Part shown: one piece after another, positions 3,559 to 11,790 of the stretch
Numbering within the stretch: the first letter of the stretch is position 1
Layout: each line of letters opens with the position of its first letter
NCBI GenBank assembly: GCA_013141455.1
Contig: JABFQW010000027.1
Location: forward strand, 39,635-103,634
Direction: 5' to 3'
Origin: Bacteroidales bacterium
Lineage (GTDB): Bacteria > Bacteroidota > Bacteroidia > Bacteroidales > F082
Length of the DNA: 64,000 nt
Position numbers and translations under genes: made by a program
The notes under the pieces: generated by a model
The model's input: only the letters and a program-made list of their open reading frames with translations
The model's database searches: none
Told to the model about the DNA's origin: nothing

Positions 3559-3819
3559 GTAATCTCCGCTGAATTCATCCAATTCACATTTAACACACAC
3601 CTGTTTAATCACTTACGAATTCTCACCGATCTGTCATAGCCCGTGTTTCTGTTCGCTCCGGTAGTAAGGGCAGTATCGTCCGACTTTCGAAATGAGGCGT
3701 TGAATTCAGTAAAACAGCAACTACTAAGTGTTTTAAATTGGTCATTGACATTTTTTTATCCTGCGAAAACCAACTTATTTTTTAAGTTAGCACTTTATTT
3801 ATTTTCAAAATGCTTCTCT
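3559..3819. other. Spacer before APC permease
   Basis: No gene is supported. A GTG-initiated extension of the permease frame covers 3643-3819, but its translation is unlike the family, so I treat it as non-coding. I see no convincing -7 box for the permease. Confidence 0.5.
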
Positions 3820-5238
3820 ATGGCTCCTCAACGAAATTTGATCAGAACACTTGGATTAGGGTATGTGATCATATTTGTTATTGCAAACATCATTGGATCA
3901 GGTGTATATAAAAAAATTGCTCCTATGGCGGCCGAACTGCATTCTTCGGTGTGGATACTTGCTGCCTGGATTGTCGCAGGAATCATCACCATTTTTGGCG
4001 CCCTGAGTAATGCCGAAGTAGCCGGATTGCTGGCCGATACCGGCGGAGATTTTGTTTACTTCAAAAAAATTTACAACCGGTTTTTTGCCTTCATCTATGG
4101 CTGGTCGCTGTTTACGGTGATCCAGACGGCAACGATCTCTTCCTTAGCCTATGTTTTTGCCCAATCGTTGAACAGCGTCATCCCTCTGCCCGAGATTTTT
4201 TCGTCGCTTAGTGACTTTACCATTGGAGGCGTGTTTTTGCCTTTTCAGGATTTTGGCGTAAAACTGACCGCCATTTTCCTGATTTTATTGTTGACATTTT
4301 TGAATATCACTGGTTTAAAAAGTGGTGCAGGAGTAAGTAAAATAATCCTGTGGTTGGTCTTCACGGGTCTGTTTGTCATCGCATTTTTTGGTCTCGGCAA
4401 CATCAACGTCTTGCCAGCCAACTTTATGAATATCAGTGAACTGACGGGTGGTACCGTAACAGTATCTTCCTTTTTTACGGCGATGCTTGGTGCATTCTGG
4501 GCCTATCAGGGATGGGTTTCGGTGGGCTATATTGGCGGGGAAGTGAAAAACCCTACCAAAAACATCCCGAAAGGAATTGTGATTGGTGTTTTTGTGGTGA
4601 TCTTTATGTATCTGTTAGTAAACGTGACCTATCTCGCGCTTTTATCCATTCCGCAGTTAGAACAGATTTACGCTTCAGGCAATCAGATCGCTGCCATCGA
4701 AGCTGTCCGAAGCTTTTGGGGAACCGGGGGTGTATTGTTTATCTCACTTCTGATCCTGATCACAACGCTGGGCTGCACCAACGCCAGCATTTTAACCGGC
4801 GCCCGCCCCTACTACGCCATGTCGCGCGACCGGCTTTTCTTCCCGGCTATCGGGAAACTGAACAAGACCAATGTCCCGGGCAATTCGCTGTTGTGGCAGG
4901 GAATCTGGGCTTCGGTATTGGTTCTTTCCGGGACTTTCGATCAGTTGACCGACATGATTATTTTTGCCGTATTTATCTTTTACGGAGCCACATCCTTAGG
5001 CGTTATTATTTTGCGCCGCAAGATGCCCGATGCACACCGGCCTTACAAGGCATGGGGTTATCCGGTTGTTCCGGTTATTTTCATCATTTTCTGCCTGTTT
5101 TTGTTTTTTAATACGATTATTACCCGGCCACGTGAAGCAGCCATCGGGATGATCCTGATTTTATCGGGTATTCCAGTTTATCTTTTTTTGCAACGAAAAC
5201 ACGCCAAACAACATGATAATGGTGACAGAAGCAATTAG
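3820..5238 (+). CDS. APC superfamily amino acid permease
   Basis: About 472 residues with roughly twelve hydrophobic segments. The first helix carries the APC signature IANIIGSGVY used for substrate amino/carboxyl binding, and the fold continues through typical segments such as AFWAYQGWVSVGYIGGEVKNP (helix 6 region). The ATG at 3820 (MAPQRN) is chosen because the family begins just before helix 1; the open frame extends 59 codons further but that part is not protein-like. It is followed by cell-wall peptide genes, so import of amino acids or murein-derived products is plausible but unproven. The NlpC/P60 gene downstream has its own promoter box. Confidence 0.85.
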   Translation: MAPQRNLIRTLGLGYVIIFVIANIIGSGVYKKIAPMAAELHSSVWILAAWIVAGIITIFGALSNAEVAGLLADTGGDFVYFKKIYNRFFAFIYGWSLFTVIQTATISSLAYVFAQSLNSVIPLPEIFSSLSDFTIGGVFLPFQDFGVKLTAIFLILLLTFLNITGLKSGAGVSKIILWLVFTGLFVIAFFGLGNINVLPANFMNISELTGGTVTVSSFFTAMLGAFWAYQGWVSVGYIGGEVKNPTKNIPKGIVIGVFVVIFMYLLVNVTYLALLSIPQLEQIYASGNQIAAIEAVRSFWGTGGVLFISLLILITTLGCTNASILTGARPYYAMSRDRLFFPAIGKLNKTNVPGNSLLWQGIWASVLVLSGTFDQLTDMIIFAVFIFYGATSLGVIILRRKMPDAHRPYKAWGYPVVPVIFIIFCLFLFFNTIITRPREAAIGMILILSGIPVYLFLQRKHAKQHDNGDRSN

Positions 5239-5292: not shown

Positions 5293-6474
5293 ATGATGCT
5301 TTTTTTTAAAAAATTCGGTTGCCTCATTTTGTTTCTTTTTGCCGGAGCCATGGTGATGGCTCAGTCAATCCCGTTTAAAACCCTATCGGTGGAGCTGCAA
5401 TCGCTTCAAAAACAGCTTGTACCTGACAAACGGGTCGCGATTCTCGACATCGGATTACAGGATACGCTTCAACCCAAGCCTGTAATTTCAGGAGAAACTG
5501 ACCTGCCGGAGGCAAAAGCACAGATCATTCAATATCTGACAGATAATAAGATTCAATTCATCGATTCAATCCGCCTTTTACCCGATATTGCATTGGGTGA
5601 AAAAATATGGGCCCTGGCAACCTTGTCTGTATCGAACATCCGTGCCCTGCCTGACGATGCTTCCGAACTCGTTTCACAGGCATTGATGGGAACTCCGTTA
5701 AGGGTATTGGATTACAAAAATAAATTTTACCGGGTTCAAACACCCGATAAGTATATTGGCTGGATGGATGCCGGTGGTTTGCAACTGTTCACCGAAAAAG
5801 AATTGGGCCGATGGAAAGGAACAAAACGGTTTCTGTTTATCTCCATGTCGGGCTATGCCTGTGATGCCCCACGTAAAAAGGCAGAGGTAGTAAGTGATCT
5901 TGTGATTGGCGACCTTTTCGAAGTGGAAGCGAAAGTCAGGGGATATTTAATAATACGCCTTCCGGATGGCCGCAGTGGATATGTTCGTAAATCGCATTGT
6001 ATTTCATTTGAGGATTGGAGCAATACTGACCCAAAAGTTTCGTCCATCGTATCTGTTGCCCGAAACATGATGGGTTCACCCTATTTGTGGGGTGGTGCTT
6101 CAAGCAAAGCGAATGATTGTTCAGGTTTCGTGAAAGTGGCTTATTATGCGCAGGGAATTATTCTTGCCCGGGATGCCTCGCAACAGGCTAAATACGGCGA
6201 ACCGGTTGATTTCAGTAAGATTGAAAATCTGCAACCCGGCGATCTGCTTTTCTTTGGACGCGATGAACGACATATTACCCATACCGGTATTTATCTCGGA
6301 AACGGGGATTTCATTCATTCCTCGGGCAGGGTGCTCATCAGCAGTATTGATCCTACCGACCCGAAATATAATCCTGCAAGGAAAAGCCAGGCTGCCCGAC
6401 GCGTCATGCATTCGCTCAACACGGAAGGAATTGTAAGGGTGAAAGATCATCCCTGGTATATCAATAAACCTTAA
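5293..6474 (+). CDS. SH3-NlpC/P60 murein peptide endopeptidase
   Basis: A 393-residue exported protein with a signal peptide (cleavage probably after VMAQ, residue 24). Residues about 105-235 contain two bacterial SH3-like domains; residues 250-375 are the NlpC/P60 catalytic domain with Cys276 in NDCSGF, His330 in THTGIYLG and a third polar residue His342 in FIHSSG. The layout matches YkfC-type gamma-D-glutamyl-diamino acid endopeptidases, which cut L-Ala-gamma-D-Glu-diaminopimelate peptides released from peptidoglycan. The next gene encodes an L-Ala-D/L-Glu epimerase, which strongly supports a murein-peptide substrate. All catalytic residues are present. Confidence 0.9.
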   Translation: MMLFFKKFGCLILFLFAGAMVMAQSIPFKTLSVELQSLQKQLVPDKRVAILDIGLQDTLQPKPVISGETDLPEAKAQIIQYLTDNKIQFIDSIRLLPDIALGEKIWALATLSVSNIRALPDDASELVSQALMGTPLRVLDYKNKFYRVQTPDKYIGWMDAGGLQLFTEKELGRWKGTKRFLFISMSGYACDAPRKKAEVVSDLVIGDLFEVEAKVRGYLIIRLPDGRSGYVRKSHCISFEDWSNTDPKVSSIVSVARNMMGSPYLWGGASSKANDCSGFVKVAYYAQGIILARDASQQAKYGEPVDFSKIENLQPGDLLFFGRDERHITHTGIYLGNGDFIHSSGRVLISSIDPTDPKYNPARKSQAARRVMHSLNTEGIVRVKDHPWYINKP

Positions 6475-6485
6475 TTACAGCACCT

Positions 6486-7634
6486 ATGAATCCCAATCGC
6501 CGCGATTTTATACGAACCACCGGGTTATTGGCCCTGGCAGGCATGACCGGTGTGGAGTTCCTGTTTGCAGCTTCGGGCGAAAATGTTATACGCGGTTCGC
6601 AAAAAGGGCTATCGCTGAGTTTCCTGCCCTACGAACTGCAGCTACAACATGTTTTTACCTTAGCCAACAGTTCACGAAAAACCACACCCGATGTGCTCAC
6701 CCGTCTCGAATTTGATGGAGTGACTGGTTATGGCGAGGCCTCCATGCCGCCCTATCTGGGAGAAAGCGTTGTTACTGCTACACGTTTTCTTTCATCGCTC
6801 GATCTGAATCAGTTTAACGATCCGTTTCAGATGGATGACATTTTGCAGTATGTCGATTCGGTGATGCCGGGAAACACAGCGGCAAAAGCAGCGGTGGATA
6901 TTGCCCTGCACGATTTGGTTGGCAAGCTGTTGGAGCAACCCTGGTATAAAATCTGGGGTTTCGATCCGGCAGATACACCCAATACCTCATTCACCATTGG
7001 TATCGATACACCCGATATTGTCCGACAAAAAGTAGCCGAGGCTACCCCTTATAAAATTCTGAAAGTAAAACTTGGTCAGTCAACCGACCGCCAGATGATC
7101 GAAACCATTCGTTCGGTAACCGACAAACCCTTGTGTGTGGATGTGAACCAGGGCTGGACCGACCGGGTGATGGCACTCGAAACGATATATTGGCTTAAGG
7201 AAAACGGGGTTGTATTCGTTGAACAGCCCATGCCCAAAACAGCCATTGACGATATGGCCTGGCTTACCCAGAACAGTCCCTTACCCACCATTGCCGATGA
7301 ATCGTTGCAACGTCTACCAGATGTGCTGAAGGCACACGGCGTTTATCATGGTATCAACATCAAACTGATGAAATGCACCGGTATGCGCGAGGCCCACCAG
7401 ATGCTCATGCTGGCCCGTTCGCTGGATATGAAAGTGATGATAGGCTGCATGACCGAAACTTCGTGTGCCGTGTCAGCCGCAGCACAATTAGCGCCGAAAG
7501 CCGATTGGGCCGACCTCGACGGTAACCTGCTCATTTCGAACGATCCATTCTCAGGGATGCGCATCGTGGATGGTAAAGTGACTTTGGCTGACAAACCGGG
7601 GATCGGGTTGGAGGTAAAAAAGAAGGTGTTTTAA
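6486..7634 (+). CDS. Dipeptide (L-Ala-D/L-Glu) epimerase, Tat-exported
   Basis: A 382-residue enolase-superfamily enzyme. Catalytic features: KVKLG (Lys193 and Lys195), metal ligands Asp219 (DVNQGW), Glu246 (EQP) and Asp271 (ADES), and the opposite-face base Lys293 (NIKLMK), with the specificity loop GCMTETS (320-326). The N-terminus NRRDFIR followed by a hydrophobic stretch is a twin-arginine signal, so this enzyme appears to act in the periplasm, whereas the E. coli and Bacillus enzymes are cytoplasmic. It follows the NlpC/P60 gene by 11 bases. Together they would cut murein tripeptides to L-Ala-D-Glu and epimerise it to L-Ala-L-Glu. Confidence 0.9.
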   Translation: MNPNRRDFIRTTGLLALAGMTGVEFLFAASGENVIRGSQKGLSLSFLPYELQLQHVFTLANSSRKTTPDVLTRLEFDGVTGYGEASMPPYLGESVVTATRFLSSLDLNQFNDPFQMDDILQYVDSVMPGNTAAKAAVDIALHDLVGKLLEQPWYKIWGFDPADTPNTSFTIGIDTPDIVRQKVAEATPYKILKVKLGQSTDRQMIETIRSVTDKPLCVDVNQGWTDRVMALETIYWLKENGVVFVEQPMPKTAIDDMAWLTQNSPLPTIADESLQRLPDVLKAHGVYHGINIKLMKCTGMREAHQMLMLARSLDMKVMIGCMTETSCAVSAAAQLAPKADWADLDGNLLISNDPFSGMRIVDGKVTLADKPGIGLEVKKKVF

Positions 7635-7659: not shown

Positions 7660-9540
7660 ATGGTCAAAGTATATATCCGTTTGTTTTTCAGGAATTTGAT
7701 GGCAACCTTGCTTTTTGTGGTCTTTGCTTCCTGTGAAGGAAAACAAACGGGTGGGAATGGTTCTACCTTCATCGAAAAAATTGAATCTGTTTTTGAAGAT
7801 GAACTACCGGATGCATATGAACCGTTGAATGCCATGCTGATCATACCGGCAAATCCCGCGCCCGGAGAGGGTTTCCGTATCCTTTCGACAGGTGGAAGCA
7901 ACATCCGTAAGGCGAAGATCATCGTGAACGGTTCCTTAGGTAATTTAGAATCGTTGAATCACACAAGCGGTAACGAATTGCCTTGCTGGCGGATAGATGA
8001 TTTTTCGGGAAGTCCGGCCGGAAAATTCCAGGCCACCCTGATGGTGGATAAAAAGGAGATCAGTACGTTGACATTTGAAATTACAGCCTGGGAGGCAATT
8101 CCCCAAAAAGGCGTTGTCTGGAAAACGACCCGCGGCTGGGATAACGAGATGGAAACGATCTATTCTGCCTGGGTAAATGCCTTGTTTCGGGGCAGTGATG
8201 AGCAGACTTCGTGGCCGGCTCTTCATGAAGTGACTCAAAATAAAGATTGTAATTTTCTATACAACTACCTCTCGTTGGGAGAAGATGATCCCATGAGTAA
8301 AAACAAAGTCATCATGGAACCCGACTGTGCCGATAATCCGTTTTTCCTGCGGGCTTATTTTGCATGGAAATTGGGACTTCCCTTTGGATATCATGTCTGC
8401 GACAGGGGTTATGTCGGGAAAAATCCGGGTACAGGTCAATGGGTCACCAATGAAAGTTCAAGCTCAAAAACCAATACTGTGCTGGCATTCAATTCGTTTT
8501 TACGAAGGATGATGGATGGAGTGCATTCGGGTACCGCACGAACGGCACTCAACAATGAAAATGCGGACTATTATCCCGTTGCGTTAGAAAGAAAATCGTT
8601 GCGTCCGGGTACCATTTACGCTGATCCTTACGGACATACCTTCATTCTTGTAAGCTGGAAAGCACAAACCAAAGACAATCCGGGCGTGCTGCTTGCCGTG
8701 GACGCCCAGCCCGATAAAACCATCGCCATCAAACGGTTCTGGAAAGGAAACTTCCTGTTTAACACGACCGAAGTGGTCGGTGAACCGGGATTCAAGGCCT
8801 TTCGACCGATTAGGTTTGATGATGGAAAATTGGCTTTGATGAAAAACGAGGCACTGAACGAATCAGCCGGGTTTGTGCCTTTTTCGTTACAACAGAAAAA
8901 AATGGAGAGTGAGGTTTTTTATCACAGCATGGAACGGGTCATCAATCCGAAGCCGCTCGATCCGGAGGCCGCCTTGCTGAACCTGATTCAGGCGCTTCAT
9001 GAGCAACTCATGGTTCGGGTAAAATCGGTGGCAAACGGAGAAGCTTATCTTCGTGAACATCCGGGGACGGTGATTCCGATGCCTTCGAACGCGAATGGTA
9101 TTTTTCAAACCGGCGGCCAATGGGAAGATTTCTCGACCCCGAACCGCGATCTACGACTTCTGATTGCCATCGATGCGGTGCTTGGTTTCCCTGACAGGGT
9201 TTCGAAATATCCGGATGATTATAACATATCAAAATCAAACTCCACCGAAGAAATAAAATATAAACTTCAGTCGCTTCTTGAAAAGAAAGTTTCGGAACTT
9301 AGCCTAAGTTATACGCGTTCGGATGGATCAATCCAGGAGCTTTCTTTAGCAGAAATCCTTCAAAGAAGAGAGGCTTTTGAAATGGCGTATAATCCAAATG
9401 ACGGGATCGAAATACGCTGGGGCGCGTCTGAAAACAGCAACGAACGGGCTACCTGCCTTCGACATGCTCCTCCCTACCAGCAAAAAACGATGCAGGCAGT
9501 TCGAAAATGGTTCAGCCAGCGGCTGCATCCGCCTACCTAA
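7660..9540 (+). CDS. Lipoprotein with papain-like Cys/His/Asp pattern
   Basis: A 626-residue lipoprotein (lipobox VFASC, Cys25) that I do not recognise as a named family. Residues about 50-145 look like a beta-sandwich domain. Residues 215-355 show a pattern typical of papain-fold enzymes: Cys223 at the start of a helix (EPDCADNPFFLRAYFAW), His326 at the start of a strand (DPYGHTFILVSW) and Asp348 on the next strand (LLAVDAQPDK). This is the order seen in NlpC/P60 and transglutaminase-like proteins. The C-terminal third is helical. It lies 25 bases after the epimerase gene, so it is probably co-transcribed and works on peptidoglycan peptides or a related substrate in the periplasm. Activity is an inference. 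Confidence 0.65.
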   Translation: MVKVYIRLFFRNLMATLLFVVFASCEGKQTGGNGSTFIEKIESVFEDELPDAYEPLNAMLIIPANPAPGEGFRILSTGGSNIRKAKIIVNGSLGNLESLNHTSGNELPCWRIDDFSGSPAGKFQATLMVDKKEISTLTFEITAWEAIPQKGVVWKTTRGWDNEMETIYSAWVNALFRGSDEQTSWPALHEVTQNKDCNFLYNYLSLGEDDPMSKNKVIMEPDCADNPFFLRAYFAWKLGLPFGYHVCDRGYVGKNPGTGQWVTNESSSSKTNTVLAFNSFLRRMMDGVHSGTARTALNNENADYYPVALERKSLRPGTIYADPYGHTFILVSWKAQTKDNPGVLLAVDAQPDKTIAIKRFWKGNFLFNTTEVVGEPGFKAFRPIRFDDGKLALMKNEALNESAGFVPFSLQQKKMESEVFYHSMERVINPKPLDPEAALLNLIQALHEQLMVRVKSVANGEAYLREHPGTVIPMPSNANGIFQTGGQWEDFSTPNRDLRLLIAIDAVLGFPDRVSKYPDDYNISKSNSTEEIKYKLQSLLEKKVSELSLSYTRSDGSIQELSLAEILQRREAFEMAYNPNDGIEIRWGASENSNERATCLRHAPPYQQKTMQAVRKWFSQRLHPPT

Positions 9541-9549
9541 TAGGTTTGA

Positions 9550-10296
9550 TCAATGCACTTCGTGCGTTCCATCGGGAAGGAAAGTTACGGTTGGAGGCAC
9601 TTTGGCCGTTTCAAACAAATCATAACTCTTTTTGAGGTCGGCCCAAAGGCTGATTTCATCTTTGTATTTCCTGTAACGGTTTGTTAACCCTGAATAGGTT
9701 TTATCATTCAAACGGGCAGGATAAATAGTCAGGTCAATCTGTGTTTGTCCGCTGTTGTAAGCCTCAATACACCACACAAACAGCTCCTTGATCTTATCAT
9801 TGGTAATGGCAAGGCAACCCGAGGACACGCATTCACCATGAATGAAAATGAAATTTCCCAAACGACCTTTCACACCCCTGATGCTGTCGGAAGCGTTCGG
9901 ATAATTGATCTGCATCGACAAATAGTATTTACTGAATGGATTCAGATCGGAGATATGGTAAAAGCCTTCCGGGACCTGAAGATCACGATAACGCCGTTTT
10001 GGCCCGACTTCACCCGAAATTTCACAGATGGGGAATTCTTTAATCAATGCGAAAACAGAGTCGGAGGTGTTTTTGGCCCACAACTCAATCTTTTTCTCAG
10101 TCTTGAAGGCGCGAAGGTATATACGCAGGCTGTCGCGCGAAATAGAATGTTCGGCAAGCGTTTTAACTACGGTTTTCTCTTTGGCAGCATAGGCTTCCCG
10201 AACGCGGGTAAATGCCATCTGCTCTTCTCTGAATGAAGGCGCATTCATCTCTAAGCCCAGGAACAACAAGGGGAAAAGGAAGATCAATAATTTCAT
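9550..10296 (-). CDS. L,D-transpeptidase (YkuD/ErfK family, YafK-like)
   Basis: A 248-residue exported protein (hydrophobic signal peptide, residues 1-17) with the YkuD catalytic motif FIHGECVSSGCLAI: His153 and nucleophile Cys161. The spacing between His and Cys and the segment VPEGFYHI with SDLNPFSKYYLSMQINYPN are those of the YafK/DpaA-like branch, which includes amidases that release Lpp from peptidoglycan as well as crosslinking enzymes. It is convergent with the preceding lipoprotein gene with only 9 bases between stops. Together with its neighbours it makes this region a cell-wall peptide locus. Confidence 0.85.
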   Translation of the reverse strand: MKLLIFLFPLLFLGLEMNAPSFREEQMAFTRVREAYAAKEKTVVKTLAEHSISRDSLRIYLRAFKTEKKIELWAKNTSDSVFALIKEFPICEISGEVGPKRRYRDLQVPEGFYHISDLNPFSKYYLSMQINYPNASDSIRGVKGRLGNFIFIHGECVSSGCLAITNDKIKELFVWCIEAYNSGQTQIDLTIYPARLNDKTYSGLTNRYRKYKDEISLWADLKKSYDLFETAKVPPTVTFLPDGTHEVH

Positions 10297-10497: not shown

Positions 10498-11481
10498 TCA
10501 ATCTGTTACGATAAATTTTATCTGATACCAATAGCCACCGGTTTTAATGCGTGCAAAATAAAGCCCGCTCCCACAACGATCAAAATCGATGCTGGCTTTT
10601 GTGTTGTTATCACTGCCTTCCAGTCCGGCTGAATATACAAGGGCACCATTTGAATGATAGATTTCGATGATCGACGGCGTGGCACCGGACAATCCTGAAA
10701 TAACCAGTTTGCCGCGTGACGGATTTGGATAAATTTTCAAATCAGGCGACAAATGTGGCTCAATGCCAACCGGATTATTCGACAGTATGGTAACTTCAGA
10801 TTGCGTGAGTGCCCTGTCGTAAATACGCAGCTTGCCGATATTACCATCGAGGCACTGATTGATACTAAAATCTGACCCTACTACATCCTGTTCCTGGCCC
10901 GCCATCAGTCCATTCGGTTCAATCAACAGTGCCGAAGCATAAACATTTGCTGCCGAAGCCCTCAAAATACCATTTTTATAAAGGAAAGCATCCGTTCCCT
11001 GTCGTACAAATACTACAAAATACCATTGTAGTGCTACAATTGAATCCGTATTTTCGATGTAATAATCATCCTGCAACCACATTTGCCATTGCCCGCCTGG
11101 TCCCGAGATAAATTTCTGATAGTAAAAACCTACATTATCACCACCGCTCTTCAGGCTGTTCTCACCCGAAAGCATGGTGTTGTAATGACTACCACTACCG
11201 GTATGAAACTGATTGAATTTTACCCACATCGCCACACTAAAATCCTGTAACTGATTCATCACAGCATTTGGAATCGAAAGATAGGAAATATCGTCATAAG
11301 GAATTGACAGTGAACCGTTAATGCCCGCGTTTCCGGCAAGTGTGGCATCATACCCATTGCCACTCGAATCGACGGTGCTTTGTTTCAATGAATAATACGC
11401 TGTTAATCCATCGGTTACCTGGCTTATTCCGGTAAATGAAACCCAAAATAAAACCAACATCGTGCTGAATTTTTTTTTCAT
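10498..11481 (-). CDS. T9SS-secreted LamG/concanavalin-like protein
   Basis: About 327 residues from the ATG at 11481; this start is chosen because it gives a clean signal peptide (MKKKFSTML...GISQ) and lies just after a -7 box. The middle (about 25-215) is a LamG-like jelly roll, recognisable from DGLTAYYSLKQSTVDSSGNGYD at the start and GNIGKLRIYDRALTQSE at the end, a carbohydrate- or protein-binding fold. The last 80 residues are a type A C-terminal sorting domain (LKIYPNPSRG... GLYFARI), which directs export through the type IX secretion system and attachment to the surface. No catalytic domain is visible; it may be an adhesin. Confidence 0.85.
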   Translation of the reverse strand: MKKKFSTMLVLFWVSFTGISQVTDGLTAYYSLKQSTVDSSGNGYDATLAGNAGINGSLSIPYDDISYLSIPNAVMNQLQDFSVAMWVKFNQFHTGSGSHYNTMLSGENSLKSGGDNVGFYYQKFISGPGGQWQMWLQDDYYIENTDSIVALQWYFVVFVRQGTDAFLYKNGILRASAANVYASALLIEPNGLMAGQEQDVVGSDFSINQCLDGNIGKLRIYDRALTQSEVTILSNNPVGIEPHLSPDLKIYPNPSRGKLVISGLSGATPSIIEIYHSNGALVYSAGLEGSDNNTKASIDFDRCGSGLYFARIKTGGYWYQIKFIVTD

Positions 11482-11505
11482 GGCTTTCAGTTTTAAGATG
11501 AAGGT

Positions 11506-11513
11506 CAAAGATA
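11506..11513 (-). promoter_or_regulatory. -7 box of LamG gene
   Basis: Minus-strand TATCTTTG, a full consensus match 25 bases before the chosen start; TTGAC lies about 18 bases further upstream in a suitable -33 position. Confidence 0.6.
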
Positions 11514-11790
11514 AGAAAACTACAAATTTTGTCAAGTAAATAGTTCATATTGAGTAACTAACAAATAGTTGTATGAAAATAAACCGGTTCGGACTCATAT
11601 AATAATGATCATATATTCAGGTAAACCGATAGTTGATGAATACGATTCTTTGCCAATATTTTTTACGAAACTCATCTACTTTAAAAATTGTTTATTATTG
11701 TACATCTTATGTGGGATCCTGAGACCACTTAAATATAACGGGGTGTAACCGAAAAGCCTTATGAGTAGGGAAATCTTAAATTAATTCATT
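11514..11790. other. Spacer between divergent genes
   Basis: AT-rich stretch without a gene that I can support. No clear promoter box was found for the rightward membrane protein; TATTATTG near 11690 is a one-mismatch candidate. Confidence 0.4.

Follow-up and report, generated by a model that had tools for sequence, protein, structure and literature searches.

A lipoprotein family with a predicted papain-like catalytic core, linked to NlpC/P60 peptidases in Bacteroidota and Myxococcota

The window, the whole stretch of 64,000 nucleotides that was analysed, carries an ORF of an unnamed family directly after the genes of an apparent murein-peptide operon, and the question is what its product does there. 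A preliminary description had taken it for a lipoprotein with a papain-type Cys223-His326-Asp348 triad acting on murein peptides. The observation was confirmed, all three residues lying at these numbers, and the interpretation was partly supported. The product is probably a secreted thiol hydrolase of papain-like (CHAP-like) type that acts on cell-wall peptides and belongs to a new, unnamed family. The features discussed below are collected in Table 1.

Table 1. Positions in the window of the focal ORF, its predicted parts and the neighbouring genes
Feature	Position	Strand	Basis
Amino-acid permease, first gene of run	3793..5238	+	PF13520 E 3e-46
SH3-NlpC/P60 secreted protein, YkfC-type marks (YLWGG..DCSG..RDAS)	5293..6474	+	PF00877 E 2.4e-24, SH3_16; motif also in relatives
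Dipeptide epimerase (enolase superfamily), twin-arginine signal	6486..7634	+	MR_MLE domains; N-terminal NRRDFIRTTG
Focal ORF, predicted lipoprotein, unnamed family	7660..9540	+	626 aa translation; GTDB and Myxococcota relatives
Signal peptide and lipobox (FASC25; Cys25 at 7732-7734)	7660..7734	+	AlphaFold helix 2-23, low-confidence 24-47; relatives' lipobox-like motif
Ig-like beta domain, residues 58-141	7831..8082	+	Secondary structure; Foldseek full-model Ig/filamin matches
Conserved core domain, residues 150-395, predicted papain/CHAP-like catalytic	8107..8844	+	Own model; CHAP/NlpC profile match
Cys223, predicted nucleophile, helix start	codon TGT 8326-8328	+	88/88; helix 226-238
His326, predicted general base, strand start	codon CAT 8635-8637	+	88/88; aligned to CHAP His
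Asp348, predicted third residue, end of next strand	codon GAC 8701-8703	+	85/88, remainder Glu; CHAP 'EGN' Glu position
C-terminal domain, conserved, mostly helical, residues 396-626, motif WEDFSTPxRDxRLLI	8845..9537	+	Alignment, AlphaFold
LdtF/DpaA-like YkuD protein, convergent	9550..10296	-	PF03734; NF040599 nearest, below cut-off

The ORF had been described as a 626-residue lipoprotein, and this was borne out. Its hydrophobic N-terminal stretch ends in FASC25, Cys25 was retained in 50 of the 59 aligned relatives, and a lipobox-like motif was found in most Bacteroidota members of the family; the sequence and its relatives thus give the signal peptide and lipobox Cys of a bacterial lipoprotein. 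The family was also rightly called unrecognised. No Pfam, NCBIfam or PDB sequence match was obtained with the ORF alone or with a 48-member family alignment, a PDB sequence search with a divergent family member found nothing, and the C-terminal domain matched no known family. The core occurs naturally without the C-terminal domain in short Myxococcota proteins (L119 2211-3512 and L120 2128-3117), which keep the Cys, His and Asp.

The family was found in three phyla, Bacteroidota, Aminicenantota and Myxococcota. One scan of GTDB contigs yielded 64 relatives with 39-77% identity, from Bacteroidota MAGs, Candidatus Aminicenantes and Myxococcota. The distribution is patchy, because a single-sequence search of 297 genomes from the window's phylum matched the window's own genome only, and a profile search of the genomes of close relatives matched 6 of 61. 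In the Myxococcota sample (the phylum of G357, the genome carrying L059), 67 of 284 genomes had a family match. A divergent Myxococcota subgroup (L107-L112, L119 and L120) resembles the window protein only remotely. One Myxococcota genome, G564 (L121 and other contigs), held five or six family matches, two of them adjoining on one contig. The family ORF was split into two frames in L023 (5983-7884) and L050 (5998-7856), by sequencing error or decay.

Calling the neighbourhood a murein-peptide operon was fair. The permease, SH3-NlpC/P60, epimerase and focal genes follow each other on the same strand with gaps of 54, 11 and 25 bp, and the SH3-NlpC/P60 protein has a signal-peptide-like N-terminus. 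The twin-arginine RR was retained in all nine epimerases compared (the window and L002, L003, L005, L007, L009, L012, L014 and L043), and their sequences suggest an exported L-Ala-D/L-Glu epimerase. A promoter and terminator scan was uninformative. Elsewhere in the window, positions 1260-2572 hold two adjacent overlapping ORFs that by eye resemble the N-terminal part of HipA and a kinase of HipA type, and positions 10498-11535 on the minus strand encode a laminin-G-like protein whose C-terminus carries a type IX secretion signal.

Across 65 family loci, where many contigs are short and all counts are lower bounds, an NlpC/P60 gene lay directly upstream of the family gene in at least 21, while a permease was present at 12 or more, an LdtF-like YkuD neighbour at 10 or more and the epimerase at 9 or more. 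The proposal that linkage to the epimerase would be general is rejected, the epimerase accompanying 9 of the 65 loci. The partner that recurs is NlpC/P60: in Myxococcota, 22 of 41 family ORFs had an NlpC/P60 domain upstream in the same reading frame, and the fusion was confirmed by Pfam in six proteins. In a family tree from a quick search with a midpoint root, the NlpC-adjacent loci (one Bacteroidota clade) and the fused loci (one Myxococcota clade) formed separate groups, with loci having neither arrangement between them. The NlpC partners differed too, with R-D-A (the YkfC mark) after the Cys helix in the window and R-H-S in the fused L057, L059 and L060. Because the tree groups are separate and the partner types differ, two separate pairings with NlpC/P60 appear likelier than one ancestral pair followed by loss. 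The suggested murein-peptide role accordingly keeps the support of two NlpC/P60 links, one by adjacency and one by fusion, but not that of the epimerase, whose co-occurrence is weak.

A papain-like hydrolase with a target other than peptidoglycan, for instance a secreted protein or a different amide of the envelope, would reduce the NlpC link to a shared envelope location. No cell-wall gene was found next door at many Bacteroidota loci and at all Aminicenantota loci, the neighbours at other loci include rubrerythrin, flavin reductase, GH92 and GDSL esterase, and a search for a second conserved operon at the non-NlpC loci returned unrelated or lineage-specific neighbours only. The Ig-like and helical domains are also unlike known murein-binding modules. 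We nevertheless regard this alternative as unlikely, given the one-ORF fusion in Myxococcota and, in Bacteroidota, an adjacent NlpC of another subtype.

AlphaFold modelled the full protein with a pLDDT of 86.5, as an Ig-like domain (residues 58-141) followed by the core and a mostly helical C-terminal domain, and the core alone with a pLDDT of 87 and a pTM of 0.89. In the model, Cys223 immediately precedes helix 226-238, His326 immediately precedes strand 327-334 and Asp348 lies at the end of strand 343-349. The model agrees in this with the placement proposed beforehand, in which the Cys opens a helix, the His opens a strand and the Asp sits on the following strand. Together with the conservation, it gives the order of the papain-like superfamily (Pfam clan CL0125), where a helix with the Cys is followed by a strand with the His and, on the strand after that, by a polar residue. 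We infer that the three residues come together in an active-site cleft. Foldseek found no significant match of the core to the PDB (best E 0.58, an unrelated protein; calpain cores at E 1.9-3.0 and TM about 0.2), and so no solved papain-like structure of CL0125 was matched. Nothing significant was found among viral models (best E 0.32), and the full model matched Ig/filamin domains only (E 0.003-0.01).

The conservation check that had been called for on the three positions came out in favour of the triad. Cys223, His326 and Asp348 were identical in 59 of 59 aligned relatives. Over 88 core sequences, the divergent Myxococcota subgroup included, Cys223 and His326 were present in every one, as the only invariant Cys and the only invariant His of the core, and Asp348 in 85. 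The three exceptions (L102, L117 and L118) had Glu; L102 and L117 are sisters in the tree and L118 is placed elsewhere, so that natural Asp348-to-Glu variants occur in two branches. Glu at this position is the residue found in CHAP domains. Asp222, directly before Cys223, was invariant (88/88), as was Gly317, which is mostly followed by Thr. The triad does not stand out by conservation alone, because 34 core positions have at most three exceptions and many other residues are about equally invariant. The triad is marked out by residue types, order and secondary-structure context.

The equal invariance of these 34 positions and the lack of a fold match would also suit a protein that is not an enzyme, in which the conserved residues hold a fold or a binding site and the protein serves as scaffold or binding partner of NlpC/P60. 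Inactive papain-like peptidoglycan binders such as DUF1175 provide a precedent (PMC10318531). We consider such a role improbable, as Cys and His are retained throughout and Asp gives way to Glu only, in two branches; degenerate relatives would be expected to lose a triad residue.

Profile comparison pointed to a remote relationship. No CHAP (PF05257) match was found by Pfam in the window protein. Of the eight Myxococcota proteins that were scanned, seven belong to the divergent subgroup; CHAP was the top or sole match in four, all divergent (E 0.025-0.41, below the curated cut-off); the best score, 15.5 bits for L120, compares with a cut-off of 26 bits. Cores were then compared with a CHAP set containing some NlpC members and with the same set after their removal, using 50 column shuffles; each E-value refers to one comparison, and since the Pfam hint had led to the choice of CHAP, test and hint are not entirely independent. 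Against the CHAP/NlpC set, the divergent core scored 34.8 (E 6.8e-5; 0/50 shuffles as good, shuffle maximum 16.3) and the window-family core 23.3 (E 0.007; 0/50, maximum 15.5). Without the NlpC members, the divergent core scored 25.0 (E 0.0033; 0/50 shuffles) and the window family 16.25 (E 0.1; shuffle maximum 15.6). In controls for the CHAP set, 57 unrelated flank families reached at most 21.9, against 114.8 for the NlpC cluster that served as positive control.

In the CHAP/NlpC alignment, His fell on His and Asp on the Glu position of the CHAP 'EGN', and Cys fell on Cys once the alignment was extended to full length. The similarity to CHAP thus stood above the controls with the catalytic residues in register, although for the window's own branch it was marginal, at E 0.007 in one comparison. 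The Cys half of the window family was not significant by itself (12/60 shuffles as good for NlpC, 6/60 for transglutaminase). For NlpC/P60 (PF00877), the core gave neither a Pfam match nor a significant profile match, with a marginal 5/100 shuffles as good. The NlpC/CHAP cluster is said to be marked by 'GD' on the strand that precedes the His (PMC10318531), where the focal family mostly reads Gly-Thr. The evidence so far suggests that the family functions as a CHAP-type hydrolase would, but it is not filed as a member of CHAP: the Pfam score stayed under the cut-off, the GD motif is absent and no fold match was obtained. The papain-type triad proposed at the outset thus stands on conservation, on order and secondary-structure context and on a remote match of the His-Asp half to CHAP/NlpC, and fails to find a significant Foldseek match.

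By eye, a DC-x-D helix start and a GH-strand followed by LD are shared with LapG/BTLCP (PF06035, Peptidase C93); only two of its sequences were located in Myxococcota, and the focal protein had no Pfam match to it. A transglutaminase-like enzyme, as also suggested earlier, with the same triad used for crosslinking or transpeptidation instead of hydrolysis, resembles the family by eye in the LGLP motif after the Cys helix and in the window's H-to-D spacing of 22, and the divergent subgroup scored above 50 shuffles. It is very unlikely, however, since unrelated families score as high as 22.4 and so cover the subgroup's 18.65, the window-family profile lies within shuffles (22/100 and 11/50 as good), the anchored Cys block came out at ranks 73-198 among about 600, and the transglutaminase core (PF01841) had no Pfam match.

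The focal protein would then be a thiol hydrolase that is exported and anchored in the membrane, with residues 150-395, the core, as a distant member of the papain-like NlpC/P60-CHAP superfamily. In the predicted mechanism Cys223 acts as nucleophile and His326 as base, with the His oriented by Asp348, for which CHAP has Glu. Catalysis of this kind, with peptidoglycan as the presumed substrate, would proceed through an acyl-enzyme to break an amide bond in the stem peptides of the cell wall, and the products would pass to the partner NlpC/P60 peptidase, YkfC-type in the window. YkfC-type enzymes, whose sequence marks have been described, require the N-terminal L-Ala of their peptides to be free (PMC2954226); the likeliest step is therefore one that frees stem peptides, ahead of NlpC, epimerase and permease. 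As to the bond, MurNAc-L-Ala amidase or cross-link endopeptidase activity is a guess that we offer tentatively, and the bond may differ in Myxococcota because the fused NlpC there lacks the YkfC mark. More speculatively, and with some doubt on our part, the proteins could form a separate undescribed cell-wall thiol amidase/endopeptidase family that has its own conserved C-terminal domain, came to work with NlpC/P60 on separate occasions in Bacteroidota and in Myxococcota, and provides free stem peptides for murein-peptide salvage carried out wholly in the periplasm.

An unnamed family common to three phyla would in this way acquire a probable partner and a catalytic site open to testing. If the reading is right, environmental Bacteroidota, in which the neighbouring epimerase likewise looks exported by the Tat route, would have an extra murein-peptide salvage step outside the cytoplasm, and family databases would gain a new papain-like family.

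Among known systems, the transglutaminase core shares the Cys-His-Asp order and the Cys at a helix start, with no profile support from the window family. NlpC/P60 enzymes such as YkfC/DPP VI share the Asp before the Cys (Asp222), the residue order and the LP motif after the Cys helix, but differ in the third residue (focal Asp, there His) and in the Ser after the Cys, which the focal protein lacks. With CHAP domains, as in LysK CHAPK, the order of Cys, His and acidic residue and the PG...GH-hydrophobic strand are the same. The focal protein differs from them in reading G-T for G-D, in its extra Ig-like and helical domains and in a Cys-His stretch of 103 residues in the window versus 63 in LysK; its third residue stands at the CHAP Glu position but is Asp. 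The H-to-D spacing of 17 in the divergent subgroup equals that of His117-Glu134 in the LysK CHAP domain (17; PMC4126393).
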